Source of the DNA: Actinoplanes sandaracinus
GTDB taxonomy: Bacteria; Actinomycetota; Actinomycetes; Mycobacteriales; Micromonosporaceae
Direction: 5' to 3'
Length of the DNA: 64,000 bases
NCBI RefSeq assembly: GCF_030009775.1
Contig: NZ_JASCTH010000016.1
Span: forward strand, 62,001 to 126,000
Positions 20,760 through 41,328 of this stretch are shown here, in pieces. Made by a program: the position numbers and the translations under genes. How positions within the stretch are numbered: the first letter of the stretch is position 1; every line of letters starts with the position of its first letter. Under the pieces are notes generated by a model. The model had not been told where the DNA came from, searched no databases, and was given only the letters and a program-made list of their open reading frames with translations.

Positions 20760-21830
20760 ATGCTCGTGACTCCTCCGCTCCCCGCACCCATCGGCGTCGC
20801 CGTCGTCGGGGCCGGCTACTGGGGCCCCAACCTCGTCCGCAACTTCCAGAGCAGCCCGAACTTCCGGGTGCGCTGGCTCTGCGACCTCGACGTCGAGCGG
20901 GCCCAGCGGGTCCTCGGCGGCTACTCCACCGTTCAGGTCTCCGCCGACCTCGACGAGGTTCTGGCCGACCCCGAGGTCCAGGCTGTGGCGATCGCCACCC
21001 CGGCCGGCACCCACCTGCCCGTGGCGATGGCCGCGCTACGGGCCGGCAAGCACGTCCTGGTCGAGAAGCCGCTGGCGGCAACCTTCTCCGAGGGCCTGCA
21101 GCTCGTCGAGGAAGCCGACAAGCGCGGCCTGACCCTGATGTGCGACCACACCTACTGCTACACCCCGGCGGTGCTGCGCATCCGCGACCTGCTGGCCGCC
21201 GGCGAGCTGGGTGAGCTGCACTTCCTCGACTCGGTGCGGATCAACCTGGGGCTGGTCCAGCGCGACATCGACGTCATCTGGGACCTGGCTCCGCACGACC
21301 TGTCGATCCTGGACTTCGTGCTGCCGCCGTCGGTGCGCCCGATCGCCGTCGCCGCGCACGGCGCGGACGGGATCGGCGCCGGCCGCGCCTGCGTGGCCTA
21401 TCTCACGCTGCAGCTCAGCACCGGCGCGATCGCGCACATCCACGTGAACTGGCTGTCGCCGGTGAAGGTCCGCACCGCGATCTTCGGCGGGTCGAAGCGG
21501 ACCCTGGTGTGGGACGACCTGAACCCCAGCCAGCGGCTGTCCATCTACGACCGCGGCGTCGACGTGTCGTCCCCGGACGAGCTCGGCGACGAGCAGCGCC
21601 GTGACATCCTCGTGTCGTACCGCTCCGGCGATGTGGTCTCCCCTGCACTCACCGAGCGTGAGGCGCTGCGGACCATGGTGGACGAGTACGCGCGTGCCAT
21701 CACCACCGGAACGCCGGCGCTCACCGACGGCCGGTCGGGGCTGCGCGTGCTGGAGATCCTCCAGGCTGCCTCGCGTAGCCTGGCCGAGGGCGGAACAATG
21801 ATCAAGCTCGACGAAGGGCACATGGCGTGA
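20760..21830 (+). CDS. Gfo/Idh/MocA-family sugar oxidoreductase
   Basis: 356 aa. The Rossmann motif VAVVGAGYWGPNLVRNF, the EKP motif (VLVEKPLA) and the HDLSILDFV stretch are standard for the family. It oxidises a sugar nucleotide with NAD(P); beside a DegT aminotransferase and a WbpD-like acetyltransferase, the WbpB-type role (3-oxidation of UDP-GlcNAc uronate) is the best guess. The operon begins here, and the next start overlaps its stop (GTGA at 21827). Confidence 0.85.
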   Translation: MLVTPPLPAPIGVAVVGAGYWGPNLVRNFQSSPNFRVRWLCDLDVERAQRVLGGYSTVQVSADLDEVLADPEVQAVAIATPAGTHLPVAMAALRAGKHVLVEKPLAATFSEGLQLVEEADKRGLTLMCDHTYCYTPAVLRIRDLLAAGELGELHFLDSVRINLGLVQRDIDVIWDLAPHDLSILDFVLPPSVRPIAVAAHGADGIGAGRACVAYLTLQLSTGAIAHIHVNWLSPVKVRTAIFGGSKRTLVWDDLNPSQRLSIYDRGVDVSSPDELGDEQRRDILVSYRSGDVVSPALTEREALRTMVDEYARAITTGTPALTDGRSGLRVLEILQAASRSLAEGGTMIKLDEGHMA

Positions 21831-22792
21831 CTGGCGTACAGATCGAGGGCACCCGTGCTCTCGTCACCGGCGGAGCGGGCACCATCGGCTCGCACGTCGT
21901 CGACGAGCTGGTCCGTGGCGGCGCCGCGGAGATCGTCGTTCTCGACAACTTCGTGCGCGGCCGGCGCGACAACCTGGCCTGGGCGCTGGAGAACGGCCCG
22001 GTCAAGCTGGTCGAGGGCGACATCCGTGACCAGGCGCTGGTCAAAGAGGTGACCGCGGGCAAGGATCTGGTCTTCCACCTGGCCGCGATCCGCATCACCC
22101 AGTGCGCCGAGGAGCCGCGGCTCGCCAACGAGGTGCTGGTCGACGGCACGTTCAACGTGATCGAGGCGGCCGCCGAGGCGGGCGTGAAGAAGCTCGTCGC
22201 GTCGTCGTCGGCGTCGGTCTACGGCCTGGCCGAGCAGTTCCCGACCACCGAGCGCCACCACCCATACAACAACGACACGTTCTACGGCGCGGCGAAGGCG
22301 TTCAACGAGGCCACGCTGCGCAGTTTCAAGGCGATGAAGGGCCTTGACTACGTCGCCCTGCGTTACTTCAACGTGTACGGCCCGCGCATGGACATCCACG
22401 GTCTCTACACCGAGGTGCTGATCCGCTGGATGGAGCGCATCGAGGCGGGCAACCCGCCGCTGATCCTCGGCGACGGCCTCGCGACCATGGACTTCGTGCA
22501 CGTGGCCGACATCGCCCGCGCCAACATCCTGGCCGCCAAGGCTGATGTCACCGACGAGGTGTTCAACATCGCCAGCAGCGAGGAGACCAGCCTCAAGGAC
22601 CTGGCCGCCGCGCTCAGCGCCGTGATGAAGTCGGAGCTGGCTCCGGAGCACGGCCCGGCGCGCGCGGTCAACGGCGTCACCCGCCGCCTGGCCGACATCT
22701 CCCTCGCGGAGAAGAAGCTGGGCTGGAAGCCCGAACTCACCCTGACCGCGGGCCTCGAGGGCCTCGTCGACTGGTGGCGGGGGTCCAAGTGA
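21827..22792 (+). CDS. NAD-dependent nucleotide-sugar epimerase/dehydratase
   Basis: 321 aa, extended short-chain dehydrogenase family. GGAGTIGSHVVDEL binds NAD; SSSASVYG and YGAAK (Tyr-x3-Lys) are catalytic. The length and the DFVHVADIARAN block fit UDP-sugar 4-epimerases or GDP/UDP-sugar dehydratases; the substrate cannot be told apart by sequence alone. It overlaps both neighbours by 4 bp in the operon. Confidence 0.88.
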   Translation: MTGVQIEGTRALVTGGAGTIGSHVVDELVRGGAAEIVVLDNFVRGRRDNLAWALENGPVKLVEGDIRDQALVKEVTAGKDLVFHLAAIRITQCAEEPRLANEVLVDGTFNVIEAAAEAGVKKLVASSSASVYGLAEQFPTTERHHPYNNDTFYGAAKAFNEATLRSFKAMKGLDYVALRYFNVYGPRMDIHGLYTEVLIRWMERIEAGNPPLILGDGLATMDFVHVADIARANILAAKADVTDEVFNIASSEETSLKDLAAALSAVMKSELAPEHGPARAVNGVTRRLADISLAEKKLGWKPELTLTAGLEGLVDWWRGSK

Positions 22793-23913
22793 TCCCGGTG
22801 ATGATCCCCCAGCTCGGGGAAGAAGAGGCGCAGGCCGCGGCCGAGGCGATCCGCTCCGGCTGGGTCGCCCAGGGTCCCCGGGTCGCCCGCTTCGAGACCG
22901 AGTTCGCCGCGGTCGTCGGCGCCGGCCACGGTGTCGCGGTCAGCTCGTGCACCACCGGCCTGCACCTGGCCCTCGTGCTGCTCGACATCAAGCCCGGCGA
23001 CGAGGTCATCGTGCCGTCGCTGTCGTTCATCGCCACCGCCAACGCGGTCCGCTACGTCGGTGCGACGCCGGTCTTCGCCGACGTCGAACTGGCCACCGGC
23101 AACGTCACCGTGGAGACGATCGACGCGGTGCGCACCGACCGGACCCGCGCGGTCATCGCGGTGCACCAGGGCGGCGTGCCGTTCGACACCGCGGCGCTGC
23201 GCAAGGCCACCGACGGCTGGGGCATCGGGCTGGTCGAGGACGCCGCTTGCGCGGCGGGCTCGACCGTCTACGGGGCTCCGGCCGGCACCGGCGCGAAGGT
23301 CGCCGCCTGGTCCTTCCACCCGCGCAAGCTGATCACCACCGGTGAGGGTGGCATGGTCACTGTCGACGACCCGGCCTTCGCCACGCGCCTCAAGCGGCTC
23401 CGCGAGCACGGCATGAACGTGTCCGCCGCCGACCGGCACGCCAGCAAGCAGCCGGTGCTCGAGGCCTATCTGGAGACCGCCTACAACTACCGGATGACCG
23501 ACATCCAGGCCGCGGTCGGCCTGGTCCAGCTCGGCCGGCTGCCCGGTCTGGTCGCGCAGCGGCGCGAGCTGGCGGCCCGCTACCAGGAGCTGCTGGCGGA
23601 CATCGACGGTCTGGTGCCGGTTCGCGACCCCGCTTACGGGCAGACGAACTACCAGTCGTTCTGGGTGCTGCTGGACGGCTTCCGGGTGAGCCGCGACGAG
23701 GTGCTGACCGAACTCGCGGCGCGGGGCGTCTCCGCGCGGCGGGGCATCATGGCCGCCCACCTGGAACCGGCCTACGAAGGCGTCACCACGGCGCCGCTGC
23801 CGGTGACCGAGCGGATCACCCGTGAGTCGCTGATCCTGCCGCTGCACCACCAGCTCACCGAAGAGAACCAGAACCACATCGTCGGCGTGCTGCGGGAGCT
23901 GGCAAGCCGGTGA
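22789..23913 (+). CDS. DegT/DnrJ/EryC1/StrS aminotransferase (first copy)
   Basis: 374 aa from the GTG at 22789, which overlaps the epimerase stop (GTGA). PLP-binding features are visible: SCTTGLHLAL, VEDAACAAGS and the Schiff-base lysine in SFHPRKLITTGEGG. It aminates a keto-sugar nucleotide using glutamate. A longer in-frame start at 22774 is less likely. It is one of two such enzymes in this operon, so the pathway probably makes two amino groups or two amino sugars. Confidence 0.9.
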   Translation: MIPVMIPQLGEEEAQAAAEAIRSGWVAQGPRVARFETEFAAVVGAGHGVAVSSCTTGLHLALVLLDIKPGDEVIVPSLSFIATANAVRYVGATPVFADVELATGNVTVETIDAVRTDRTRAVIAVHQGGVPFDTAALRKATDGWGIGLVEDAACAAGSTVYGAPAGTGAKVAAWSFHPRKLITTGEGGMVTVDDPAFATRLKRLREHGMNVSAADRHASKQPVLEAYLETAYNYRMTDIQAAVGLVQLGRLPGLVAQRRELAARYQELLADIDGLVPVRDPAYGQTNYQSFWVLLDGFRVSRDEVLTELAARGVSARRGIMAAHLEPAYEGVTTAPLPVTERITRESLILPLHHQLTEENQNHIVGVLRELASR

Positions 23914-24542
23914 AAGAGCTGGTCATCGTCGGGGCGGGCGGGTTCGCCCGGGAAACCGCCTCGGCCGCGGCCGACGCCGGATGGCGGGTCCTCGGATTCG
24001 CCGACGACGACCCCGGCCTGCTCGGGGTCGTCCGCTCCGGCCTGCCCGTCCTCGGCGCGATCGACACCGTCGCCGGGAAGACGGACGCCGCCGTCGTGGT
24101 GTGCGTGGGCAACCCGCGCAACTTCACCGCGCGGCGCGGCATCGTCGAGCGGCTCGGCCTGCCCGCCGACCGGTACGCGACGGTCGTGCACCCGTCCGCG
24201 TCCATCGGATCCGGCAGCACCGTCGGCCCCGGAACGGTTCTGCTCGCCGGGACCGTGCTCACCGCGGACGTGACCGTGGGCGCGCACGTGGCGGTCATGC
24301 CGCAGGCGGTGCTCACCCACGACGACCGGATCTCCGATTTCGCCACCGTCGCCTCCGGCGTCCGGCTGGGTGGTTCCGCGGTTCTGGAGACCGGCGCCTA
24401 TGTCGGCGCCGGGGCTCTGGTCCGCGAGGGTGTGACCGTCGGCGCCTGGGCCCTGGTCGGGATGGGCTCGGTCGTGTTGCGCGACGTGCCTCCCGGCGAG
24501 GTCTGGGCCGGCAGCCCGGCCCGTTTCCTGCGTAATGTCTGA
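23910..24542 (+). CDS. NeuD/PglD-like sugar O/N-acyltransferase
   Basis: 210 aa. The N-terminal Rossmann-like part (KELVIVGAGGFARETASAA) binds the nucleotide sugar; the C-terminal left-handed beta-helix has HPSASIGSGSTVGPGT and the catalytic-type histidine in the QAVLTHDDRI segment. Family members acetylate amino sugars such as UDP-4-amino-sugars or sialic acid. It overlaps the preceding aminotransferase by 4 bp (GTGA), so the two probably act in sequence. Confidence 0.85.
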   Translation: MKELVIVGAGGFARETASAAADAGWRVLGFADDDPGLLGVVRSGLPVLGAIDTVAGKTDAAVVVCVGNPRNFTARRGIVERLGLPADRYATVVHPSASIGSGSTVGPGTVLLAGTVLTADVTVGAHVAVMPQAVLTHDDRISDFATVASGVRLGGSAVLETGAYVGAGALVREGVTVGAWALVGMGSVVLRDVPPGEVWAGSPARFLRNV

Positions 24543-24554
24543 GGAGCTGACTTC

Positions 24555-25652
24555 ATGACCCGCATCCCGCTCGTCGACCTGGCCGCCGCTCACGCGGAGG
24601 TGGCCGAGGAGGTCGAGGCCGGATTCAAGCGCATCATCGCCGCCACGGCGTTCATCGGCGGCGCCGAGGTGGCCGCGTTCGAGCAGGAGTACGCGGCCTT
24701 CTCCGGCCTGCCGCACTGCATCGGCGTGGCGAACGGCACCGACGCCCTGGAGCTGGCGTTCAAGGCCGTCGGCGTCGGGCCGGGCACCGAGGTGATCCTG
24801 CCGGCGAACACGTTCATCGCCACGGCCGAGGCGGTCGCCCGGACCGGCGCCGAGGTGGTGCTGGTGGACTGCGACCCGCACACGTACCTGATCGACGTGG
24901 ACGCGGCTCTCGCCGCGATCACGCCGCGCACCCGGGCCATCGCGCCGGTACACCTCTACGGCCAGCTCGCCCCGGTCGACCTGCTCAAGCAGGGTCTGGC
25001 CGGGCGGGACATCGCCATCGTCGAGGACGCCGCCCAGTCGCAGGGCGCCACCCGGCACGGCCTCGGCTCCGGGGTCGACGGCATCGCCGCGACCAGCTTC
25101 TACCCGGGCAAGAACCTCGGCGCCTACGGCGACGCCGGCGCGGTCACCACCGCCTCGGCGGATTGGGCGACGACGGTACGCACCCTCGGCAGCCACGGTG
25201 GCCTGCGTAAGTACCACCACGACATGATCGGGGTGAACAGCCGCCTCGACGGTCTGCAGGCGGTCGTGCTGCGGGCCAAGCTGGCCCGTCTGGCCGGCTG
25301 GAACGAGCAGCGCCGCGCCGCCGCCGCCCGCTACGGCGAGCTGCTGGCCGGTTTCGAGCAGGTGGTCCGCCCGGTGGTGCTGGACGGCAACGTGCCGGTG
25401 TGGCACATCTACTGCGTCCGGGTGCCGAACCGGGACGAGGTGCTGGCCAAGCTGAACGCGGCCGGCGTCGGCGCGGCCATCCACTACCCGATCCCGGTGC
25501 ACCGGACGGGTGCGTTCGCGTCGCTCGGCGGTTCCTTCCCGAACGCGGAGAAGGTGGCGCCGGAGATCCTGTCGCTGCCGATCTACCCGCAGATCACCCC
25601 GGACCAGCAGGCCCGGGTGGTCGAGGAACTCGGCAAGGCCCTCGCTTACTGA
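24555..25652 (+). CDS. DegT/DnrJ/EryC1/StrS aminotransferase (second copy)
   Basis: 365 aa. It starts MTRIPLVDLAAAHAEV, with GVANGTDALELAF, VEDAAQSQGA and the lysine in FYPGKNLGAYGDAGA. These blocks are closest to WbpE/FdtB-type 3-aminotransferases. Together with the Gfo/Idh protein and the WbpD-like acetyltransferase it could complete a 2,3-diacetamido uronic acid branch. It lies 12 bp after the acyltransferase gene. Confidence 0.9.
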   Translation: MTRIPLVDLAAAHAEVAEEVEAGFKRIIAATAFIGGAEVAAFEQEYAAFSGLPHCIGVANGTDALELAFKAVGVGPGTEVILPANTFIATAEAVARTGAEVVLVDCDPHTYLIDVDAALAAITPRTRAIAPVHLYGQLAPVDLLKQGLAGRDIAIVEDAAQSQGATRHGLGSGVDGIAATSFYPGKNLGAYGDAGAVTTASADWATTVRTLGSHGGLRKYHHDMIGVNSRLDGLQAVVLRAKLARLAGWNEQRRAAAARYGELLAGFEQVVRPVVLDGNVPVWHIYCVRVPNRDEVLAKLNAAGVGAAIHYPIPVHRTGAFASLGGSFPNAEKVAPEILSLPIYPQITPDQQARVVEELGKALAY

Positions 25653-27963: not shown

Positions 27964-28881
27964 TCAGCTCGCGCTGGGCTCGACCGCCTTGCCGTCCACG
28001 AACCTGTTGCCCCGCCACTCGTTGCCGGGCGCCTTCGTGTTGAAGGAGGTGACGGTGCCGAACGAGGCGCACTCGCCGTTGGGGCCGCGCTGGAACACGT
28101 TGTCCACCACGACGATCCGCTCTGATTGGGTGCCGAACTTCTTCTTCGCGTCGTAGCCGCCGTAGAAGCAGTAGGACATCTCGGTGGAGGCGACGAAGAG
28201 GTTCCCCTGGATCGTGTAGTCGGAGTTCGGCCCGAGGTCACCGAAGATCGACGCGTTGGAGGTGCACCCGCCGCCGGCCTTGTTGGTGGGCCGGTCACAG
28301 GCCAGCGTGTTGCCGATCAGCTTGATGTTGGTGCCGCCGTTGGAGAGGAATCCGTTGAGGTGCCAGTCCCCACCCTCGGGCACGAACGGGTTGTGCAGGT
28401 ACGAGTCCTGGATCACGCAGTTCAGGTAGCAGTTCACGGCGCTCTGGCCACCGACGATGTCGGACCGCAGCACGGTGAGGTTCTCGAAGCCGACGGTGTG
28501 CAGGAACGCCTCGCCGCCGTCGATGTCGGAGTCCTCGATCAGCAGCGAGTGGCCCTTGCCCTCGACCTTCACCGAGCCGGTGACCTTGCTGTTGCGGATC
28601 ACCACGTCGGCCGCCTGGATCAGCAGCGGGCACCGGACGTCGCTCGCCTCGATGACGGTGCCGGATTCCTTGATCGTGCACGGCCCGTCGTAGGAGCGCA
28701 GCGACGTCCCGTCGAGCACGCCGGTCGACGCGGCGTCCGGGAAGACGTCCGCCTTCTTCCTGGTGTTGGTGAAGTTGGGGCTCGTGTCGCCGCCGCCCGG
28801 GCGGCTTTCGACGTACCACCACGCGGCAGCGCCCCCGACCAGCACGGTCGCGAGCGCTGCCAGCAGGCGCTTTCTCCACAT
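27964..28881 (-). CDS. secreted right-handed beta-helix protein (operon end)
   Basis: 305 aa. One N-terminal hydrophobic segment (LLAALATVLVGGAAAWWYV) precedes a short linker. The mature part is a parallel beta-helix: VVIRNSKVTGSVKVEGKGHS, LLIEDSDIDGGEAFLHTVGF and NLTVLRSDIVGGQ are typical rungs, with paired cysteines (CTIKES, RCPLL, NCYLNC). It resembles pectate-lyase-like and related glycan-binding or lytic proteins. Start 7 bp after the ACP stop, so the genes are cotranscribed. Related in plan to the protein at 33319-34458. Confidence 0.82.
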   Translation of the reverse strand: MWRKRLLAALATVLVGGAAAWWYVESRPGGGDTSPNFTNTRKKADVFPDAASTGVLDGTSLRSYDGPCTIKESGTVIEASDVRCPLLIQAADVVIRNSKVTGSVKVEGKGHSLLIEDSDIDGGEAFLHTVGFENLTVLRSDIVGGQSAVNCYLNCVIQDSYLHNPFVPEGGDWHLNGFLSNGGTNIKLIGNTLACDRPTNKAGGGCTSNASIFGDLGPNSDYTIQGNLFVASTEMSYCFYGGYDAKKKFGTQSERIVVVDNVFQRGPNGECASFGTVTSFNTKAPGNEWRGNRFVDGKAVEPSAS

Positions 28882-28888
28882 GGGAGGG

Positions 28889-29152
28889 TCAGTTCCGCTT
28901 CTCTGCCACGAACGTGGTGAGGCTGCCCAGGGTCTCGAACACCTCGGCGGTCACGTCCTCGTCGTCGACCGCGATGCCGAACTGCTGCTCCAGGGCGGCG
29001 ACCAGTTCCAGCACCGCCATCGAGTCGAGTTCCGGCAGGTTGCCGAGCAGTTCGGTGTTCGCGTCGATCGAGGCGGCCCGGTCGGAGATGGCGAGCGTCT
29101 CGACGAGAACCGTCTTCACCTCGTCGAGCAGGGCAGAGCTGTTCAGTGCCAT
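28889..29152 (-). CDS. acyl carrier protein
   Basis: 87 aa, the normal ACP size. The phosphopantetheine site is the serine in LPELDSMAVLEL (Ser44), followed by the helix with EQQFGIAVDDEDVTAEVFETL. It lies directly downstream of a PLP decarboxylase and an AMP-forming ligase; in exosortase-linked loci the same three types form a set. It probably carries an acyl or aminoacyl group loaded by the ligase. No ketosynthase or other chain-building enzyme is nearby. Confidence 0.9.
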   Translation of the reverse strand: MALNSSALLDEVKTVLVETLAISDRAASIDANTELLGNLPELDSMAVLELVAALEQQFGIAVDDEDVTAEVFETLGSLTTFVAEKRN

Positions 29153-29178
29153 CGTGTTCCTCCGTAGTTTCTGCGGTT

Positions 29179-30405
29179 CTAGACGAGCATCTCGGCCGCG
29201 GCCGGATGGCTCAGGAAAGCGGTCGGACTGGCGGTGAGCCCGTAGGCGCCGGCCTGGAAGAGGACGATCAGGTCGCCGACGTCGGCGCGGGGCAGCGTGA
29301 CATTGTCGCCGAGCAGGTCGAGCGGGGTGCACAGGGAGCCGACCACGGTGACCGTCTCGACCGGCTCCTCGTCGAACCTGGTGCCGACGACCAGCGGATA
29401 GTTGCGGCGGATGACCTGGCCGAAGTTGCCGGACGCGGCGAGCTGGTGGTGCAGACCACCGTCGACGACCAGGAAGGTCTTGCCGCGCGACTGTTTGCGG
29501 TCGACGACCCGGGTGACGTAGACGCCGGACTCGCCGACGATGTAGCGGCCCAGTTCGACCACCACCCGGGCCTCGGGGAGCCGGGGCCGGAGCTTGCCGG
29601 TCATCAGCTCGCTGAGGTTCGCGCCCACGGCGGCGAGATCCAAGGGCAGATCACGATCGGTGTACGGGATACCGAAGCCGCCGCCCAGGTTGACATAGCG
29701 CACCGGGGTAGGAGCGTCGTCGGCCAGCCGCAGCACCAGGTCGACGGTGTGCTGCTGGGCCTCGATCAGGCTCTCCGCCCGCAGGTTCTGCGAGCCGGCG
29801 AAGACGTGGAAGCCGAGGAACTCGCACTCGGTCTCGCCGAGCTGCTTGAGCAGGGCGGGCACCCGCTCGGCGTCCACCCCGAACTGCTGGGGGCCGCCGC
29901 CCATCCGCATGCCCGAGCCCTTGAGGCTGAAGTCGGGGTTGACGCGGACCGCCACCCTCGGGCGGATGCCGAGCTGCTCGCCGATGTGGGCGGCGCGGGC
30001 GGCCTCGTTCTCCGACTCCATCTCGATCGTCACGCCCGCGGCCACGGCCTGCCGCAGCTCGGCGTCGGTCTTGCCGGGCCCGGCGAAGCTGATCCGCTGG
30101 GCCGGCACCGGCGTGTCGAGCGCCACCAGCATCTCGGCCGACGAGGCCACGTCGAACGAGTCGACCAGGCCGCTCAGGTGCTGCACGACGGCCGGCATCG
30201 GGTTGGCCTTGACGGCGTAGCTCAGCTGCAGGTCGGCGGGCAGGGTGGCCCGCAGCAGCGCGATCCGGTCGGTGAGCAGCTGCCGGTCGTACGCGAAGTA
30301 GGGCGTGCCGCCGGCCCGCGCGGCCAGCCGGTCGACGGGCACACCGTTGACGGCCAGCCGGCCCTCCCGGCGTCCGAAGGCGGCGACGGTGGGGTGCGAA
30401 GTCAC
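29179..30405 (-). CDS. PLP-dependent decarboxylase (DapDC/ODC fold, exosortase-type triad)
   Basis: 408 aa. Alanine-racemase-fold type III decarboxylase: LSYAVKANP with the PLP lysine at residue 66, the HVFAGSQN block, NLGGGFGIPY (phosphate-binding glycines) and GSLCTPLD in the place of the catalytic Cys motif. The overall pattern is nearest the subgroup annotated as exosortase A system-associated, not true LysA. GTG 30405 overlaps the ligase stop (GTGA). The substrate is probably an amino acid, perhaps ACP- or ligase-linked (inference). Confidence 0.85.
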   Translation of the reverse strand: MTSHPTVAAFGRREGRLAVNGVPVDRLAARAGGTPYFAYDRQLLTDRIALLRATLPADLQLSYAVKANPMPAVVQHLSGLVDSFDVASSAEMLVALDTPVPAQRISFAGPGKTDAELRQAVAAGVTIEMESENEAARAAHIGEQLGIRPRVAVRVNPDFSLKGSGMRMGGGPQQFGVDAERVPALLKQLGETECEFLGFHVFAGSQNLRAESLIEAQQHTVDLVLRLADDAPTPVRYVNLGGGFGIPYTDRDLPLDLAAVGANLSELMTGKLRPRLPEARVVVELGRYIVGESGVYVTRVVDRKQSRGKTFLVVDGGLHHQLAASGNFGQVIRRNYPLVVGTRFDEEPVETVTVVGSLCTPLDLLGDNVTLPRADVGDLIVLFQAGAYGLTASPTAFLSHPAAAEMLV

Positions 30406-31973
30406 GAGTTCAGCTCCTGGCGGATGAGGTTGCGGTCGAACTTGCCGTTGGGCGAGCGGGGCAGCTCCGGGCGTACCTCGATCTGCTTGGGAAGCATGTA
30501 GATCGGCAGGTCCTTCTTGAGCCGGTCGAGCAGGGCGGCCGGGTCGAGGTCGGCGCCCTCGGGCGCGCTGGCCACCAGCACGATCCGCTGGCCCAGCTTG
30601 GGGTCGGGCAGGCCGAGCGCCACGGCGTCGCGGACCAGGCCGGTGCCGTAGGCGATCTCCTCGATCTCGGTGGGGCTCACCCGGTAACCGGACGTTTTGA
30701 TCATGTCGTCGGTCCGGCCGACGAAGTAGAGGAAGCCCTCCTCGTCGCGGACCACGGTGTCGCCGGACCAGACCGCCAGCTCGGGCGCGAGCGCGCCCTC
30801 CCGGACCGGCAGCGGCTTGAATCGCTCGGCGGTGCGCTCGGGGTCGTTCCAGTAGCCGAGGGCGACCAGCGCCCCGCGGTGCACCAGTTCGCCGTGCTCC
30901 CCCGCCTCGCACTCGGTGCCGTCGGGCCGGACGACCAGGATCTCGGCGTCCGGGATCGCCTTGCCGATCGAGTCCGGGCGGCGGTCGACCTCCGCCGGAT
31001 CGAGGTAGGTGGACCGGAACGCCTCGGTGAGCCCGTACATCAGGAAGGGCCTGGCGGCCGGGAAGATGGCCCGCAGCCGGTCGAGGGTGGTTCGCGGCAT
31101 CCGGCCGCCGGTGTTCGCGAAGTAGCGCAGCGACGCGGTCGCCTCCGGTGTCCAGCTCTGCTCGACCAGTTGCACCCACAGGGGCGGGACACAGGTCAGG
31201 CCGGTGACGCCGTGTTTGGCGCAGAGCCGGACCACGTCCTTGGGGAGCAGGTAGTTCGTCAGCACGACGTGCGCCCCGACCGCGAACGCGGTGGTGATCT
31301 GGCTGAAGCCGGCGTCGAAGCTGAGCGGGAGGACGGAGAGGATCACGTCGTCGGCGGTGTTGCCGAGATAGGTGCTGACGCTCTCGGCCCCCACGATCAG
31401 GTTGCGGTGCGACAGCACCACGCCCTTGGGGCGGCCGGTGCTGCCCGAGGTGTAGAGGATCGCGGCCACGTCGGCGTCGATGCCGCCGGCGTCGGGAGAG
31501 CCCGTCGCCGCGACGACCAGGTCGTCCCAGGAGGACACCGTGTATCCGGCCGGGGTCTGCGCCGTCCCGGTGGCGGCGCCGCCGACCAGGACGACCCGCT
31601 CCACCGACTTGAGGTTCTCCAGCTCGTCGTGCAGCAGGGCCAGCCGGTCCGGGGTGGTGATCAGCACCCGCACGTCGCAGTCGGCGATGATGTGGCCCAC
31701 CTGCCGCGCCCGCAGCACCGGGTTGACCGGCACGAACACCCCGCCGGCCGCCGACGTGCCGAAGATCGCGGCCACCGTCTCGACGCGCTTGTCGAGCCAC
31801 ACACCGACCCGGTCGCCGCGCTGGAGGCCGAGGCGGCGCAGGCCGCGGGCCGCGTTCAGGGTGCGGTCGGCGAGCTCGGCGTAGCTCAGCGTCTGGTCCT
31901 TGAAGGTCAGCGCCGGCGACTCCGGGGAGCGATCGGCCGAGCCGAGGAGCAGATCGTGCAGGCGGATGCGCAT
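30402..31973 (-). CDS. AMP-forming acyl/aminoacyl-CoA (ACP) ligase
   Basis: 523 aa from the ATG at 31973, which has AAGGAAGAAG upstream; a GTG at 32003 is a longer option. Adenylation motifs are clear: YTSGSTGRPKG (residues 174-184), YGLTEAFRST, GDTVVRDEEGFLYFVGR and the C-terminal catalytic lysine in SPNGKFDRN. It should activate a carboxylate and load the downstream ACP. The grouping with decarboxylase and ACP matches exosortase A-associated ligases. It lies in the middle of a five-gene leftward operon. Confidence 0.9.
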   Translation of the reverse strand: MRIRLHDLLLGSADRSPESPALTFKDQTLSYAELADRTLNAARGLRRLGLQRGDRVGVWLDKRVETVAAIFGTSAAGGVFVPVNPVLRARQVGHIIADCDVRVLITTPDRLALLHDELENLKSVERVVLVGGAATGTAQTPAGYTVSSWDDLVVAATGSPDAGGIDADVAAILYTSGSTGRPKGVVLSHRNLIVGAESVSTYLGNTADDVILSVLPLSFDAGFSQITTAFAVGAHVVLTNYLLPKDVVRLCAKHGVTGLTCVPPLWVQLVEQSWTPEATASLRYFANTGGRMPRTTLDRLRAIFPAARPFLMYGLTEAFRSTYLDPAEVDRRPDSIGKAIPDAEILVVRPDGTECEAGEHGELVHRGALVALGYWNDPERTAERFKPLPVREGALAPELAVWSGDTVVRDEEGFLYFVGRTDDMIKTSGYRVSPTEIEEIAYGTGLVRDAVALGLPDPKLGQRIVLVASAPEGADLDPAALLDRLKKDLPIYMLPKQIEVRPELPRSPNGKFDRNLIRQELNS

Positions 31974-32010
31974 GTGGAGTTGCTTCTTCCTTGTGACGGG
32001 CACCCGGAGG

Positions 32011-32865
32011 TCACCAGCTGAGGCACACGAGTTCGCTGTAGAGGTAGTCGACGTCGGAGTCGGCGAACCCGTCTCCGAGGACCATCTTGCGGCGGGGGTT
32101 CTCGAGGGTCCGGCCGCCGGGCAGCGAGCCGCCGACCACCCTCGGCTCGGCCAGGGTCGCCGGGATGCCGTGCCGCAGCAGCAGGTGGCGCGACACCTGA
32201 CGGAACATCCGGCGGAAGAGGGCGGGATTGCTCACGTACAGGATCGAGGCGAAGAGCGGCAGACCCTTGCGGCGGTCCTTGCGGAAGATCGCGTAGCAGG
32301 TCTCGTCACCGCGGGTGAGCAGCAGGTGGCGGGCCGCCGCCAGGCCGGCGTGGTCCTGGTAGATCTGTGCCTGGGCGCCGGACAGCGTGGCCTCGATCTT
32401 GCGGGGGTCGTCCGTCACCGAGCCGGAACCGGGCAGTCCGGGCAGGTTCGGCACCAGCTCGGTGGTGGTGTCGAGGAAGCGGAAGCCCTTGCGGGTGTTC
32501 ATCGGCACCACGTTGCCGCTGGGCGACAGATCGGTGTACGCGTCGCAGCCTTGGTCCAGCAGCGCCTTCAGCAGTTTCAGGCTGTGGAACCGCTGCTCGG
32601 GCAGGACGCACCAGGCGCCGAGATTGCAGAACCGCAGAACCCGGCCGCCGATCGTCCGGTCCGAGTAGAAGGCGAGGTATGCGCCGACCACGACGTCGTC
32701 GTCGGTGCGGAGGTGGAACCCGTGGTTGGGGGCGTCGACCTTCCACGGGACGTCGACCGCGCGCGCCCACGCCTGGGCGGAGACCCTCTCGTTGAGGTGC
32801 CGGTGCAGGAACTCCGCGACCTCGGGCACGTCCGAGCCGGTGATGGCGCTGACTCGAACTCCCAT
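32011..32865 (-). CDS. GNAT-fold acyltransferase-like protein
   Basis: 284 aa. The acetyl-CoA-binding part of the GNAT fold is suggested by FCNLGAWCVLPEQRFHSLKL followed by helix LLKALLDQG, then NTRKGFRFLD, which fits the GNAT motif-B region. The C-terminal 130 residues have no clear match and could be a second domain (FemAB-like proteins also have duplicated GNAT folds). As first gene of the ligase/decarboxylase/ACP operon it could transfer the carried group to a sugar (inference). It starts within the divergent intergenic region. Confidence 0.65.
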   Translation of the reverse strand: MGVRVSAITGSDVPEVAEFLHRHLNERVSAQAWARAVDVPWKVDAPNHGFHLRTDDDVVVGAYLAFYSDRTIGGRVLRFCNLGAWCVLPEQRFHSLKLLKALLDQGCDAYTDLSPSGNVVPMNTRKGFRFLDTTTELVPNLPGLPGSGSVTDDPRKIEATLSGAQAQIYQDHAGLAAARHLLLTRGDETCYAIFRKDRRKGLPLFASILYVSNPALFRRMFRQVSRHLLLRHGIPATLAEPRVVGGSLPGGRTLENPRRKMVLGDGFADSDVDYLYSELVCLSW

Positions 32866-33318
32866 CTAGCTCGCCGCTCCGACCGGCCGACGAGGCCGTC
32901 CGGGGGTGGAATTCATGTCTGTGCCCTTCCGATTGCGTGGTCGCGCCGACGATACCGTGACCCGGCGACGGGACGCCGCCGCTGTGCCAGCTTTCCGTCA
33001 CTCCGGATCGTCGATATGACCACTCCGGACGGCTCGGTACCGGACGAACGGGGGATTGCCGTGCACCCTTCGGCGACCATGCGCCGAACCGGTCGGCCGA
33101 GTCCTCTTCGGAGGGAGATTTCGCCCGATCGGCAGTGATGGGGAGAATTGCCGGAAAACGCGATTCGAGATCCGCGGCTTTTCTTGGCTCTTCCTTAACC
33201 GGCCGACCCGCGGCACCTCATCCCCACGCCGCATCTTCTAGGATGCTCGGGTTGCCCTATGCAGAAGCACTCTCGATGACCGCCCGGAACCGGGACCATC
33301 ATGAGGAGATCGCACCCC
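32866..33318. promoter_or_regulatory. 453-bp divergent promoter region
   Basis: It drives the leftward triad operon and the rightward beta-helix gene. The part at 33150-33250 is AT-richer than its surroundings, and TAGGAT (33241-33246) is a possible -10, though without a good -35. A short CACTCCGGA direct repeat lies near 33000 and 33021. No ORF here looks coding. Confidence 0.4.
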
Positions 33319-34500: not shown

Positions 34501-34522
34501 TCTGACGAGTCTTAAGTCTCGC

Positions 34523-35990
34523 TTAAATCTGATCCGCCATAGCCGGTGAATCCGTAACCGTCGCGGCCGTTCGCAGCTCGCGGAGCACGTGACGCAGGCG
34601 ATAGCCGAGCAGCGCCACGACGCCCGCGGCGACGGCACCGGAGACCGCCAGCACGACCAGGTCGTGCCAGCCGGTCCGGGTGGCCGCCCACGCGATCCCG
34701 GCGACCACCGCCCCACCGAGCACGGCCGGAGCGATCCGGGCCGCCAGCGTGCCCAACGTCACCCCGGTGCGGCGCAGCTCTATCAGATAGAGCGGCATGA
34801 CCACCACCACCGCGACCGCGAACTGCACCGCGGCGGCGGCCCACAGGCCACCCGCGCGGCTCGCCAGGTAGAGCGATGGCAGCAGCGCCACGAACCAGAC
34901 CGTCTGCACGACCAGCACCACCCGGGTGTTCGCCAGCACCACGAAGTAGTCGTAGAACAGCTCGAACAGGACCCGCATCGCGGCCAGCAGGCCCAGCCAC
35001 ACCAGCACCGTCGAGGCCGGCTCCCACACGTCGCCGTAGAGGAACCGGATCAGCGGCCCGGACGCGCCGGACAGCAGCAGGCAGGCCGGCAGCGCGATCA
35101 CCGCGAGCAGCCCCGACGCCGACAGGAACGCCGACCGCAACGCCGGCCGGTCGTGCTGCAGACGGGCCAGCGCGGCCGGCACGACCGCCCGCACCGGTTG
35201 CGAGAAGATGGTGATCGGCCAGCTCGCCAGGTTCAACGCGAGCATGTAATAGCCGAGCGCGGTGGGCCCGAGGACCGTACCCACCACGATCCGGTCCACA
35301 TTGGTGGTCGCGAAGACGATGATGCTCGACCCGGCCAGCGGCAGGCCGAACTTCAGCAGCGCCCGCGCCTTGGCCGGGTTGAAGCCGAACCGCAGGCCCT
35401 TCGGGGCGAACACGAAGAACAGGATCCCGCCGGCGACCGCGCCGGACAGCTGGCCGATCGCCAGGCTCATCGCGCCGGCGCCGGACACCGCGAACCCGAT
35501 CGAGATCAGCGCGCTCGTCCAGTTGCTGACCAGGTCGACTATGGTCCGCTGCTTCTGCATGAAGGCACGCTGCATGAGACCGACCGAGGTGGCCACCAGG
35601 CCGCTGACCACCACGGCGAGCGCCAGCACCCGGATGACCGGGATCGAGCTCTCGTCCCCGAGCGCGCGCGAAGGCCGGCGCCCCGAACCAGCAGCCCGCG
35701 TAGACCAGCAGGCTCGACAGCGCCGACAGGGTGGCGACGGTGGGGCCGATCTCCTCCGGGTCGTCCGGCCACCGCACGATCGCCAGGCTCACCCCGAGCT
35801 CGTTGAAGCTCAGCACGGCGGCCAGCACCACGAGGGCCACCGCGAAGGTGCCGAACTCCTCCGGCCCGAGGATCCGGGCCAGGGCGATGCCGATGACGAG
35901 CGTGCTCAGCCGGCTGAGGAGCGTGCCGATGAGGCTCCAGCCCAGCGCCCGCGACGCCTTCTGGAAGAGAGCCGGTTCCTGCTCGCTCAT
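34523..35990 (-). pseudogene. Wzx-type polysaccharide flippase, frameshifted
   Basis: Two overlapping reading frames together make one flippase of about 488 aa. The N-terminal part starts at ATG 35990 (MSEQEPALFQKASRALGWSL, then ARILGPEEFGTFAVA) and keeps typical Wzx/PST sequence to ARAR near 35665. The rest continues in another frame from ALGDESSIPVIRV, with ten or more hydrophobic segments down to 34523. Adding one GC to the (GC)4G tract at 35662-35670 restores FARALGDESS, so a 2-bp loss explains the break. It may be a sequencing error, a true mutation or a phase-variable site. It overlaps the GT4 gene upstream by 4 bp (ATGA) and would export the lipid-linked repeat unit. Confidence 0.85.
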
Positions 35991-37210
35991 CCGAGGAACC
36001 GTCGCACCCGGCGGCGGGCGCTGTCGGAGAGGAGGTCCGCGACCGCCTTGTGGCCGGCCACCCGGGCGCCCTCGCTCAGGCGGCGCGAGGGCCGCACGGG
36101 ATTGGCGAGCGCACGTTCGTACACCTCGTTGAGGGTTTTCGCGGCAGCCTTGAGGCTGAACCGGTCGAGGATCAACCGCCGTCCCCAGCGACCCCGCTCG
36201 GCCCGCAGCGCGGGGTCGTCGACCAGGGTGCGCAGCGCGGCGGCCAGCGGCGCCGCGTCGACGTCGCCCTCACCGATGCCGTAGAAGCCCTCGCGCAGGA
36301 AGTGGTCGATGGTGTCGGGTCCGGCGGGCAGGAAGAACCCGCGGATGCCGAGGACCACGAGCGGCTGGGCGAACGCCATCGCCCGCAGCGCGGATCCGCC
36401 CATCCCGACCATGAGGTCGGCGCCCGCGTACGCCGGGCGGGGGTCCTCCATGGCGCCCGCCATGACCACCGCGGGCCGGCCCAGGGCCGTGTTGACCCGG
36501 TCCGCCTCGGCGGACACGTCGGCGAACGACGGACCGTCACCGACCACCACGAAGCGGACCCGCGGGTCGTCGAGCAGCCCGACGGCGCGGATGGTCCGCA
36601 GGATGCCCTCGGCCTTCATGTCCGGCTCCAGCCGGGAGACCACACCGATCATGATCTCGTCGTCGCCGACGCCGTGCCGTGCCCGGAACGCCCGGCCGTC
36701 GACCGCCGCCGGGTCGTCGGAATCGGTGTTCACCGGCGGCTCGATGAGCGTGGGCCGGGCCCGGAAGCCGGCCGCCTCGTCGACCAGTTGCTGAGTGCCG
36801 ACGATGATCTCGCCGTAGCGGGGCATCCACCGGGGAACCCGCATGCCGTAGATCGTGGTCACCACCGGCAGGCCGCGCCGCACGTGCGCGCCGTAGAAGG
36901 CGTCCAGCCCGACGGAGAACTCGTAGACGTGCAGGAGGTCCGCCCGGAACTCACGGGCCGCGCGGCCGATCGCCCGGGACAGCGCGGGGCGGGCGGGCAT
37001 CGTCTTCCCGAGCCGCACCGCCGAGTGCCGCTCGGAGATCAGTGGCAGGCCGGCGGCGCGGACCAGGTCGGCCATCGGGCCGGGCCGGTCGGTGTAGTTG
37101 CCGAAGACGGCGACCTCGTGCCCGTAGTCGCGCATGCTGACGGCGAGGTCCAGAGCGTTGAGCTGACTCCCGCCGAGTTCCAGATGATGCAGGCCGACGA
37201 TCAGTCGCAC
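35987..37210 (-). CDS. glycosyltransferase family 4-like
   Basis: 407 aa, GT-B fold. The N-terminal GLHHLELGGSQLNALDLA and the donor-domain blocks IGVVSRLEPDMKAEGILRTI, FVVVGDGP and MGGSALRAMAFAQPLVV are typical of GT4, although the usual EGFGLxxxE motif is replaced by GMGGSALRAMA. It adds a sugar to the repeat unit on the cytoplasmic side. First gene of a two-gene leftward unit with the flippase. Confidence 0.85.
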   Translation of the reverse strand: MRLIVGLHHLELGGSQLNALDLAVSMRDYGHEVAVFGNYTDRPGPMADLVRAAGLPLISERHSAVRLGKTMPARPALSRAIGRAAREFRADLLHVYEFSVGLDAFYGAHVRRGLPVVTTIYGMRVPRWMPRYGEIIVGTQQLVDEAAGFRARPTLIEPPVNTDSDDPAAVDGRAFRARHGVGDDEIMIGVVSRLEPDMKAEGILRTIRAVGLLDDPRVRFVVVGDGPSFADVSAEADRVNTALGRPAVVMAGAMEDPRPAYAGADLMVGMGGSALRAMAFAQPLVVLGIRGFFLPAGPDTIDHFLREGFYGIGEGDVDAAPLAAALRTLVDDPALRAERGRWGRRLILDRFSLKAAAKTLNEVYERALANPVRPSRRLSEGARVAGHKAVADLLSDSARRRVRRFLG

Positions 37211-37272
37211 CTATTCCCCCAGTCGGTCGCGAACCGGCGGACGATCCGCCGCGGTCGATGGTGCCCGGGCGC

Positions 37273-37312
37273 GGCCGTGGCGCGGACGGTTTGCACCATC
37301 CGCGCCACGGCC
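37273..37312 (-). terminator. 14-bp hairpin terminator
   Basis: Perfect stem 37273-37286 with 37299-37312 and a 12-base loop, 14 bp past the stop of the giant leftward gene. It separates that gene from the GT4/flippase unit. Confidence 0.65.
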
Positions 37313-37325
37313 GGTCACCCGCAGG

Positions 37326-40300
37326 TCAGTTGGGTGCGAACACCACATCGACCCAGAAGTTGGCGGTCGTCGATGACCCCGGCATCACTCCACCCGTCCC
37401 GTAACGGTAGGTGGCTCCGTTCGCCGGCACCGTCAGCTGCGAGACTGTTCGAGGGTTGGCCAGGCCACCCCCGGTCACCGCGTAATGCCCGGCCGTCATG
37501 TGGTAGGAAACCACATATTGATGGCCGGCGCTGACCGCCACCGGTTGCGAGAAGTACGCCGTCTGCCAGCCCGTCGCGGTCTCGTTCTGGAAGGTGACGG
37601 TCGCCATCTCGATGCCGCCGGGCGACCAGAGCGTGCCGGTGTGCGTGCCGGTGTTGCCCGGACCCTTGTAGAACCGCACGCCGTGGACCTTGCCGTTCAC
37701 CGACGGGATCACCTTCATGCCCACTTCGAGGGCGTCGGGGTCGTCCCAGCTCGCGGTGGCGGGGGTGTCCGCGTCGGTGAAGACGCCGTAGGTGCTCGGC
37801 GCGCTCGTGCTGGCCGACGGTGACGGCGACGCGCTGGCGCTGGCGCTCGGCGAGGGCGACGCCGAGGACGCGCTCGGCGACGGCGATGGGGTGCCGTGCC
37901 CCTCGGAGACGAACAGCGGATCGACCCAGTAGTTCGCCGAGTTGTACGACTGCTGCGGGAACTCGCTGTCGCCGTACCGGAAGACGCCGTTGTTGCCACC
38001 CTGAGCCTTCAGCGGCCCCCGGCTGATGTCCGAGGCGAAGTACCCGCTGTCGAACGCGTAGTTGCCGTTCGGAGCGAAGTACGAGGCCACGTACGTGGTC
38101 CCGGCGGTGATCGCGGCGGGCTGGGCGAAGTACGCGGTCCGCCACCCGTTCTCGGTCGAACTGGGCACGATCGCCGAGTCGACCTTCGAGCCGTTCGCGT
38201 TCCACAGGCTCACCTGGTGCGTCCCCGAGTTGCCCGGTCCCTGATAGAACCGGACCCCGACCAGCTCACCGTCGGTGGTCGCCTGGAACTTGACGCCCAG
38301 TTCGACTTTCGCCGAGTCGGTCTGCGACACCGTGGTGGGCACCGCGTCACTGGGGAACAGGGAGTGGACCGTGCCGTCGACGGCGGTGAAGAACGACCAC
38401 GACGTGCCGCCGGAGCGGTCCTCCGTGTCCTTGCCGGACACCTCGGCGGTGTACGACGTCGACGCGTCCAGCGGCTGTGCCGGGGTGAAGGTCACCTTCT
38501 TCTCGACGCTGTCGTACGCCGTGGTGCCGGTGACCGCGCCGCCGCTCTGCTTGGTGAGCGTGAACTGGACCGACGTCGCCTTCAGCGCCTTGGAGAAGGC
38601 CGCCGAGACGGTGGTGGCGGTCGGCACCGCGCCGGCGCCGTCGACCGGGGTCGTGCTGGTCACCACGGGCGGCAGCTCGCTGCTGACCACGAACTCGACG
38701 TCGACGTAGTAGTTGCCGGCGTTGAACGACTCGTTCGGGAACCCGCCGCCGTTGGCGTACTTGAACAGGCCGTTGCCGGCGCCGGTCACCGAACGCGACC
38801 CGGTGAGCGGGCCGTTGGTCCAGTCCCGGGTGAACCAGTAGCTGTCGGCGGCGTAGTTGCCGCTCGGGGCGTAGTAGGAGGCGACGTAGGTCGTACCCTC
38901 CTCGACCTTGACCGGTGAGGAGAAGGTGAGCGTCTGCCAGCCGGACGCCGACTCGTTCTGGAAGGTCCCGGTCCGGAGCCGCTGGCCGGTGGTGGTCCAG
39001 AGCGACCCGGTGTGCGAGCCGGTGTTGCCCTCGCCCTTGTAGAACCGGATGCCGGTGATGTAGCCGTCGACCGCGGGCTGGAAACGCACGCCCAGCTCGA
39101 CCGGGCTGCCGTCGGCGACCGCGGGGGTCGCCGGCACCCGGTTGCCGAACATGGTGTTCGGCCCGGTCAGCTTGAACTCGGCCGTCGCCGGCGACGCACC
39201 GAGGTTGGCGCTGTCGTCGGCGGCCCGGACCTGCACCGTCTGGGTGTTCAGGCCGGCCGCGAAGAACTTGTAGGACCAGTTCGTGGTGCCGGTGGCGGCA
39301 TGCCAGGTCGCACCGTTGTCGATGGAGACCTCGACCCCGGCGACCCGGCCGCCGACGTCGGCCGCGGTGCCCGTCAGCGTCACCGTGGCGCCCCGGGCGA
39401 ACGAGGCGCCGGAGGCCGGCGACGTGATGGTCACGGTCGGCGCGGTGTCGTCGGTGGAGGCGGTGGCCGCGTGCAGCTCGCTCATCAGGGTGCCCGGCTG
39501 CACGCCCATGTCGGCGAAGAGATTCACCACGGACTGCTGCATCCGCTTGTCGGTCGGGGTGGGCTGGCCGTCGTGCACCTCGTCCAGGCCCCAGGTGTAC
39601 TGGATCGAGCCGGCGCTGAAGACGAGCGCGCCGCTGCCGGCCCGGTAGAGCGTCAGGTGGTGGCTGGTCTTGCCCGGGCCGACCTTGTTGCCCCAGCCGT
39701 CCTGCACGAGCTGCGGGACGTCACCGGTGGTGGTCGATAGCCGGACCAGGCCCTCGGGCCGGAACCCGTTGTCGACGTCCTCGTCGGATTCGTAACCGAC
39801 GGTGTGCGGCGCGAGAGCGACCGACTGGCCGGCCGGGATGTCGTCCAGGTCGGTGTGCCGCCAGAGCCGGTACTTGCCCTCATCGGACTTGACGGTGACC
39901 GGCAGGTCACCGTCGTTGACCATGTACTGGGTGCCCATCAGCTCGTTCTCCGGCCGGCCACCGTCGGACGGCGGGCTGAACCGCGGGTCACGCCAGGTTC
40001 CGGTCCACTCGGCCGCCGGGTCGAGCTTGGAGTTGGCCCAGGTCTCCTTGTATGTCACCACGGTCCGGTGGTCGGTGTTCGTCCCGTCCTTGCTGGGCTC
40101 GTAACGGGTCTTCCAGTACACCGAGTTGCCGCTGAAGAAGGCCAGGTGCGTGCCCGCGTCGCGGGCCGCCTCGACGTTGTCGCGCTGCTTCTTCGACCAG
40201 TACTCGTCGTGACCGACGGAGAGGAAGACGTTGTGGTTCTTGATGAGCTGGCCGCGGCGGTCGCTGTCGACGTTGGTGGTGTAGCTGACGTCGTACCCGT

Positions 40301-41090: not shown

Positions 41091-41328
41091 GACGTCTGCT
41101 CCCTCTGGACGATGTGCGGCCGGTAAATGTCCATCTGGCCCGCTCAGCTCGATTTCAGCGGGAGCGTAGCTCTGGGTGTCCACCGGGCGTACCGCAACTT
41201 CGGCCGATAAATTCGTACGACCGGCCAGGTCGGACGACCCGTCGGCTGCCTCGTGACAAAGGTCGGCCGACCGGCCGAGCGACTCGGCTGATCTTGGAAC
41301 GGCACCTATGGTAATAAGTTCCCGCTTA

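Follow-up and report, generated by a model that had tools for sequence, protein, structure and literature searches.

Among the closest described relatives of the system analyzed here are systems for the biosynthesis of antibiotics and polyketides. The butirosin proteins BtrI, BtrJ and BtrK are a free-standing acyl carrier protein (ACP), a ligase for an acidic amino acid, and a LysA-fold decarboxylase that works on the ACP-bound acid; the ligase BtrJ is of the ATP-grasp type, and BtrH, which serves as acyltransferase, has another fold than GNAT. According to the accessible parts of two accounts, BtrK decarboxylates L-glutamyl-BtrI to BtrI carrying gamma-aminobutyric acid (GABA-BtrI; PMC7857480), and an amino group on the aglycone receives the aminobutyryl group (PMC11405602). 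Similarly, the vicenistatin ligase VinN loads 3-methylaspartate on the ACP VinL, after which VinO decarboxylates it on the ACP (accessible part of PMC11284099). In the binding mode proposed for VinN, Asp230 contacts the amino group of the substrate, and Ser299 and Arg331 its free carboxyl; the bolagladin proteins BolO, BolC, and BolN are proposed to act likewise with aspartate (accessible part of PMC7756342). The present analysis concerns five genes of the actinomycete Actinoplanes sandaracinus, at 27964-32865 of a stretch of 64,000 nucleotides (the window; contig NZ_JASCTH010000016.1, positions 62,001 to 126,000), four of which form a cassette comparable to these systems. From its gene content, gene order, conservation, pocket residues, and predicted fold, we consider it fairly probable that this cassette builds an omega-amino-acyl group on its ACP and attaches it to a cell-surface glycan.

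The five genes lie tightly packed on the minus strand (intergenic gaps, in operon order, of 37, -4, 26, and 7 nt), at the very coordinates where a sequence-only reading of this DNA had seen a tight leftward operon:

32011..32865, minus strand: g33, predicted tandem-GNAT acyltransferase, proposed to move the ACP-bound amino-acyl group onto an amine (AlphaFold2 model, fold matches, co-occurrence)
30402..31973, minus strand: g32, putative AMP (adenosine monophosphate)-forming amino-acid:ACP ligase (TIGR03098, VinN-like pocket)
29179..30405, minus strand: g31, pyridoxal phosphate (PLP) decarboxylase, BtrK-like (TIGR03099, CTPLD motif)
28889..29152, minus strand: g30, free-standing acyl or aminoacyl carrier protein (PF00550, PELDSM site)
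27964..28881, minus strand: g29, predicted right-handed beta-helix protein, membrane-anchored or secreted, an optional member (AlphaFold2 model)

The decarboxylase gene has a GTG start and overlaps the ligase stop by 4 nt. No promoter-like site was found, terminator-like sites numbered 4 against 1.8 expected, and none was convincing at either end of the operon. The two profiles named by the sequence-only reading proved correct: g32 scores 774.6 bits against TIGR03098 (ligase_PEP_1; curated cut-off 592.35) and g31 590.4 bits against TIGR03099 (dCO2ase_PEP1; curated cut-off 478.45), g31 being the single gene over the latter cut-off in the whole genome. At the superfamily level, Pfam assigns the ligase to PF00501 and the decarboxylase to PF02784. 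The ACP matches PF00550 with the carrier site PELDSM, and its best solved match is 2lki (E 9.4e-19), which we take to be a protein from Nitrosomonas.

For the ligase, a search of solved structures with the pocket segment returned 3wv4 and 3wvn alone at E 1e-8, and these are also the best solved relative of g32 when single domains are compared (217.6 bits). We take both entries to be VinN, an identity backed by D230, S299, and R331, all three of which are found in the chain shifted by the same 16 positions (counted by hand). Two other candidates for the closest relative were rejected. Linear gramicidin synthetase tops the full-sequence list because several stretches are summed, its best stretch reaching 158.5 bits and thus falling below VinN; 8xjz scores 231.5 bits over the full sequence, above VinN, yet its single stretches all fail 1e-40. 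The pocket of g32 consists of D220, T288, and R320, which correspond to VinN D230, S299 (as Thr), and R331, with K511 as the catalytic Lys. The Asp, the Arg, and the catalytic Lys are kept in all 67 ligases compared, those from exosortase-bearing genomes included; this set comprises the window and the 66 loci with a called open reading frame (ORF) of 440-620 aa among 80 named loci, which are themselves the best 80 of at least 549 decarboxylase relatives. The S299 column holds Thr in 53 of the 67 and Ser in 14. Of the other adenylating domains in the window's genome, 27 were sampled for comparison; none has the Asp and Arg pair, and 22 have the Asp alone (30 of the 51 PF00501 matches were taken, leaving 28 distinct rows, one of them the window, once duplicates and short cores were removed). 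A pair that is universal in these ligases and absent from the controls leads us to expect that the substrate of g32 is an amino acid bearing a second carboxyl, contrary to the name acyl-CoA ligase given to its family.

Other evidence says that the decarboxylase g31 is a BtrK-type enzyme, resembling BtrK more than LysA in its sequence. Its nearest solved protein is BtrK (7ru7, 2j66; E 2e-72, the next sequence standing at 1.3e-43), with 36.6% identity and 249 bits. In LysA, the Glu of a CE motif meets the second amine of the substrate. At the alignment column of this motif, CE followed by S, T, or Q is found in 24 of 24 LysA rows and CTPED in BtrK, whereas CTPLD stands in all 82 TIGR03099-type rows and in all 22 rows of a related type that we coded f18; CTP thus replaces CE in 104 of 104 family and near-family rows. 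The f18 type is a TIGR03099-like subfamily (407-424 bits, below the cut-off) found in 22 of 396 genomes of the phylum, all with that family code. In addition, the g31-type rows, the f18-type rows, and BtrK share some five inserted residues directly in front of the motif, which LysA is without, as read in printed rows (4 of 81 TIGR03099-type, 4 of 22 f18, BtrK, and 4 of 24 LysA). A tree built from random rows (24 of 81 TIGR03099-type and 8 of 22 f18; two long LysA rows and the row own2 left out) splits LysA from the g31-type and BtrK rows with support 100/100. Against the LysA model TIGR01048, g31 scores 237.3 bits, below the cut-off of 297.9, and a separate LysA elsewhere in the genome scores 465.9 bits. 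The same genome also holds a very divergent LysA-fold paralogue (L002, contig C36; 232 bits to TIGR03099), whose motif is CTPRD, and CTP alone is therefore not family-defining.

The transferase g33 has a weak Pfam match to a GNAT family (PF13527, 16.9 bits against a cut-off of 25). Its AlphaFold2 model, with a predicted local distance difference test (pLDDT) score of 94.6, shows a tandem GNAT arrangement across the whole length; it is closest to N-myristoyltransferases (Z 15.5, root-mean-square deviation 4.2, 263 of 284 residues aligned) and also matches Eis. As judged from this model, g33 is a member of the GNAT superfamily, a predicted tandem-GNAT transferase. Enzymes of the N-myristoyltransferase and Eis types take an acyl group from CoA thioesters and pass it mostly to amines. 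They thus share with g33 the tandem GNAT fold and the acyl-thioester-to-amine reaction predicted for it, but differ in sequence (8-17% identity in the rows listed), in the acyl group, and in the donor, which for g33 we infer to be the ACP from operon linkage and co-occurrence.

The last gene of the operon, g29, has no Pfam or NCBIfam match. Its AlphaFold2 model is a right-handed beta-helix (pLDDT 85.6, low in the first 37 residues), and the top 50 fold matches (Z 16.6-19.6) include polysaccharide lyases, epimerases, and tailspikes. A relative of g29 (at least 100 bits) lies within 10.5 kb at 16 of the 80 named loci. From its modeled fold, g29 probably acts on or binds a polymer outside the membrane. 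Two genes on the opposite strand flank the operon, a second beta-helix protein (33301-34458, plus strand) and a putative beta-propeller protein (26913-27932, plus strand; labeled by eye, with no Pfam match); both remain nearby in several relatives.

The cassette is patchy and accessory: TIGR03099 is matched over its cut-off in 13 of the 67 genus genomes, in 10 of a sample of 150 from the family, and, in a phylum-wide sample of 396, in two genomes, one of them the window's own. Where it is present, its arrangement is conserved. The transferase, ligase, decarboxylase, and ACP genes follow one another in this order on one strand in 16 of 19 loci chosen by TIGR03099 (L047-L065, of which 12 are from the genus, six from the family, and one from the phylum; a twentieth, L066, is of the distant f18 type). 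Among the named loci, all four genes occur in 34 of 80, in the window's order in 22; four genomes are counted in both sets (L067/L050, L069/L056, L073/L062, and L083/L065). Within the genus, g33 and TIGR03099 are found in the identical 13 of 67 genomes. Rhizobiales (Mesorhizobium and others) also carry the cassette, and since their decarboxylases fall inside the starred actinobacterial clade of a separate decarboxylase tree, lateral transfer is suggested. The arrangement is not a chance neighborhood, because relatives from other genera, and from a second phylum, keep it; a neighborhood survey, proposed by the sequence-only reading as a check, thus found the linkage conserved in the genus, in the family, and beyond. 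Some loci hold an additional gene between decarboxylase and ACP, namely a 366-aa gene without a Pfam match in Mycobacterium sp. NAZ190054 (L074:11220-12320) and, on the gene maps, a gene of 315-322 aa in the mycobacterial loci L097 and L126.

The ligase and decarboxylase families, the pocket Asp and Arg, and a related ACP (at 13 of 21 loci) are features that the cassette has in common with exosortase A (PEP-CTERM) loci, the two families having been checked by profile in one of these, L130. Unlike those loci, the window cassette lies in a genome that is free of exosortase, has TIGR03101 below its cut-off, carries its ACP co-directionally within the operon, and includes g33. The absence of an exosortase, first remarked on for the window, extends much further: the exosortase profile PF09721 has no match in the 10.19-Mb genome and none over its cut-off in 67 genus genomes (three weak matches fall below it). 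Inspection of the C-termini of 12 selected window proteins revealed no sorting signal, a reading confined to these proteins and not extended genome-wide to sortases or PEP-CTERM tails. Fifty of the named genomes with a TIGR03099-type gene come almost entirely from Actinobacteria or Rhizobiales; PF09721 has a match at E 0.001 in six of them, and Jiangella (L094) alone passes the cut-off, by a partial match of 27.6 bits. The other 30 named genomes, mostly Beta- and Gammaproteobacteria, have an exosortase over the cut-off in 21, in one case by a partial match of 37.1 bits. The ligase-decarboxylase pair therefore occurs both with and without an exosortase.

The gene content around the pair differs between these settings. 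In the exosortase-bearing named genomes, an ACP is present at 13 of 21 loci; 12 of these have it on the opposite strand, and one, L132, has it directly downstream, as in the cassette. The ACP gene of L130 stands first in an operon that also encodes the hydrolases TIGR03101 and TIGR03100. TIGR03101 is over its cut-off in three of three proteobacterial exosortase controls and in none of 10 actinobacterial or Rhizobiales cassette genomes, the window's own included, nine of which have weak matches below it. The 21 exosortase loci are without a g33 counterpart by profile; a PF13480 GNAT is present at the two that were examined (L130 and L134), which are too few for a claim. Among the 80 named loci, g33 lies near the decarboxylase in 37 of 59 loci without an exosortase and in 0 of 21 with one (Fisher 1.7e-7, shared ancestry ignored, with the partial match of L094, just over the cut-off, counted among the negatives). 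With a strict cut-off, which makes L094 exosortase-positive, g33 is counted at 36 of the 58 exosortase-free loci and at 1 of the 22 others (Fisher 2.0e-6, again ignoring shared ancestry). The weak part of the sequence-only reading is accordingly its description of the triad as exosortase-style, given that the ACP is mostly on the opposite strand in exosortase loci and that TIGR03101 stays below its cut-off in the cassette genomes checked.

The operon is surrounded by genes for the synthesis and export of a glycan:

20760..25652, plus strand: amino-sugar genes, namely a Gfo/Idh dehydrogenase, an epimerase, two DegT aminotransferases, and a PglD-type acetyltransferase (family matches)
34512..43730, minus strand: Wzx-like flippase, glycosyltransferase, surface protein with DMFA (N,N-dimethylformamidase-like) and DUF4082 domains (g37), Wzy-like polymerase, and Wzz-like protein
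47527..48192, plus strand: g43, CE4/NodB-type polysaccharide deacetylase (PF01522)

The amino-sugar genes are syntenic in loci L047 and L050. The Wzz-like label (42708-43730) derives from position and N-terminus, a family match being absent. The locus also includes hexapeptide acetyltransferases, more than one glycosyltransferase, and a sugar transferase. At least two classes of glycan genes are found near the cassette in 30 of the 37 g33-bearing loci, and a relative of g43 in 25 of the 37. The CE4 metal residues D52, D53, H106, and H110 are kept in 31 of 31 aligned rows, and the window deacetylase has no N-terminal hydrophobic or signal segment. As judged from sequence, g43 could expose a sugar amine as acceptor, the DegT aminotransferases being an alternative source. 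The neighboring glycan genes were also considered as members of an exosortase system. Their matches to TIGR03088, TIGR04063, TIGR03097, TIGR03087, and TIGR03013 are all below cut-off, and they are therefore not members; TIGR03006 has no match in the 10 neighboring glycan proteins profiled. Three very large secreted proteins are encoded at 37326-41183 (minus strand; g37), 49575-52766 (plus strand), and 52766-57214 (plus strand); all three have DUF4082 and Big_5 domains, and two have a DMFA2_C domain.

Taken together, these genes would allow the following sequence of steps. An acid of the Asp or Glu type would be loaded on the ACP through its side chain, and the PLP decarboxylase, by its resemblance to BtrK and VinO, would strip the alpha-carboxyl on the ACP to give beta-alanyl-ACP or GABA-ACP. 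As its fold and linkage suggest, g33 would then move the group from the ACP thioester to a sugar amine, which either the CE4 deacetylase, of cytoplasmic type, would have exposed or the DegT aminotransferases would have introduced. Export and polymerization of the unit would fall to Wzx and Wzy, and the resulting glycan would carry additional primary amines that are reactive and positively charged. The sequence-only reading had supposed that an ACP-bound amine or aminoacyl group might be added to a sugar by the GNAT protein. This interpretation is supported: by analogy with the BtrK and VinN precedents, together with the pocket residues and the predicted GNAT fold, such chemistry becomes more plausible.

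Each part of this mechanism is well precedented. Like butirosin BtrI, BtrJ, and BtrK, the cassette combines a free-standing ACP with a ligase for an acidic amino acid and a LysA-fold decarboxylase for the ACP-bound acid, whereas its ligase is AMP-forming (PF00501) and not of the ATP-grasp type, its transferase is a tandem GNAT, and its acceptor is presumably a polymer and not the amino group of an aminoglycoside. The vicenistatin (VinN/VinO/VinL) and bolagladin (BolO/BolN/BolC) systems share the AMP-forming ligase with Asp230 and Arg331, the stand-alone ACP, and a PLP decarboxylase that acts after loading; they feed a polyketide synthase (PKS) or non-ribosomal peptide synthetase (NRPS), of which the window has none among the ORFs scanned, and no counterpart of g33 is named in the accessible parts of their accounts (PMC11284099, PMC7756342). 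In the open-licence papers searched, we found no account of a glycan locus that combines a VinN-type ligase, a BtrK-type decarboxylase, an ACP, and a tandem GNAT, and no paper in open-licence PMC was found to link the triad with BtrK or VinN. The accessible part of PMC8776678 has the triad and words related to BtrK or VinN in unconnected places, and the terms ligase, decarboxylase, acyl carrier, hydrolase, and TIGR03099 are all absent from the main text of Haft (2006; PMC1569441). A literature search for known beta-alanyl or aminobutyryl glycans yielded nothing usable.

Several observations weigh against this reading. The fold relatives of g33 are CoA-dependent enzymes, and fewer than two classes of glycan genes are found at seven of the 37 g33-bearing loci (one of them a contig of 6.5 kb). 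The gene itself is placed or turned differently in 12 of the 34 four-gene loci, and it was not found in the available stretch of L089, L100, and L105 (L100 being near a contig end), despite the presence of ligase, decarboxylase, and ACP. As for the decarboxylase, g31 is also 33.9% identical to the nearest of the 24 LysA rows (166 bits), and the branch of BtrK in the tree is long, its joining point having a support of 48/8; kinship with BtrK is therefore supported by score and motif, the tree giving no proof of it. In the ligase comparison, a single control row out of 27 is gapped at the Arg column, and VinN F231 and K330 are replaced in g32 by Ala and Phe, respectively, so that the acid is not readable from the pocket. 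Finally, a second copy of g33 lies apart from the cassette in seven of the 13 genus genomes, that of the window among them. In the window's genome and in two of three relatives read, the neighbors of this extra copy include glycosyltransferases and a putative glycoside hydrolase, by labels given by eye; in the third relative, it lies amid unrelated genes. The extra copy in the window's genome stands outside the window (L201:9318-10169; G000:C9:186320-187168), and the genes around it were labeled by eye as a putative GH5-like hydrolase, genes of GT2 type, and a carbonic-anhydrase-like gene. Given a second g33 near glycan genes, one carrier pool may serve two transferases.

Among the alternatives, g33 might work like FemAB or N-myristoyltransferase, with a protein or peptidoglycan amine as the acceptor. 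The nearest fold, N-myristoyltransferase, does acylate protein amines, and at the f18-type locus L066 the ligase, decarboxylase, and ACP adjoin two FemAB-family genes and a GNAT gene. In addition, a relative of g37 adjoins the ACP in seven of the 12 genus loci L047-L058 (L048, L049, L051, L053, L054, L055, and L057), and this recurrence means that a conserved candidate acceptor protein exists. However, g37 is oriented either way and is not beside the cassette in other loci, and the labeled neighbors are mostly glycosyltransferases, Wzx, Wzy, and the deacetylase; we therefore consider a protein or peptidoglycan acceptor unlikely.

A shade less probable is a role of the same ACP chemistry in making a small molecule, either polyketide or peptide, the position in a sugar locus being incidental. 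At nine named actinobacterial loci, ligase and/or decarboxylase are beside PKS-like genes (called by eye from N-termini, with Pfam run for L084 and L092), and their decarboxylases fall inside the window's starred clade of 52 rows, in which a group of 14 rows includes the window with support 83. In both L084 and L092, Pfam finds a type I PKS as well as condensation domains that stand alone; in L086, it finds an ACP preceding the ligase. An NRPS-like gene also lies about 4 kb past the right end of the window (L205; G000:C9:126001-142000). However, relatives of the window's glycan genes occur in none of the nine PKS-type loci (two of which are short contigs), as against the 30 of 37 g33-bearing loci with at least two classes; g33 is absent from the available stretch of all nine; and the 35 window ORFs scanned with Pfam (34 of 52 called genes) have no PKS or NRPS domains, ligase and ACP aside. 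In L084, L085, L092, L086, L107, and L059, actinobacterial type I PKS regions (recognized by Pfam in L084 and L092 and by inspection of the sequence in the others) have the same ligase and decarboxylase together with stand-alone condensation-like proteins, and by sequence they look like uncharacterized amino-acyl-started polyketides. Such a position beside PKS and condensation domains also speaks for the main reading, being what one would expect if the pair yields a carrier-bound amino-acyl unit; more generally, delivery of such a unit to different acceptors appears to be the common denominator of these contexts.

It is also conceivable, if quite improbable, that another acid is decarboxylated on the ACP, e.g., diaminopimelate to give lysyl-ACP, or else a dicarboxylate that bears a methyl or hydroxyl group. 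With F231 and K330 of VinN replaced in the g32 pocket, a larger acid could fit; VinN itself takes 3-methylaspartate (accessible part of PMC11284099). A mutase or methyltransferase partner might be present among the unlabeled neighbors. On the other side, the LysA motif whose Glu serves the second amine is replaced by CTP. Least of all do we credit the view that g32 and g31 are an ordinary acyl-CoA ligase and diaminopimelate decarboxylase that are merely adjacent: although both are remote members of the PF00501 and PF02784 superfamilies, TIGR03098 and TIGR03099 are matched far over their cut-offs and the lysA model below its own, and the BtrK match, the amino-acid pocket with its controls, the CTPLD motif, the separate LysA in the genome, and the cross-phylum linkage contradict on every count a fatty-acid ligase and LysA unlinked in relatives, the outcome that the sequence-only reading had named as its refutation.

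Until now, TIGR03098 and TIGR03099 have been named by their association with exosortase, as 'acyl-CoA ligase' and 'decarboxylase'. The present comparison would make them an amino-dicarboxylate:ACP ligase and a BtrK-type decarboxylase that occur also without exosortase and have a partner transferase in Actinobacteria and Rhizobiales. A stem-peptide amine serves sortase as the nucleophile. By analogy, one could speculate, with little confidence, that the triad has one function everywhere, supplying an omega-amino-acyl arm (beta-alanyl or GABA) on surface glycans, and that in Gram-negative exosortase A systems the exosortase joins PEP-CTERM proteins to that amine, while elsewhere g33 places it as a cationic decoration; if so, Actinobacteria and Rhizobiales would keep the chemistry without the exosortase. 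By the above assignment of the two families, the exosortase-associated triad gains a testable function that is simple to address in vitro. For the organisms that carry the cassette, amine-bearing surface glycans are predicted, and their decoration would be linked with the chemistry of antibiotic side chains and polyketide starters.

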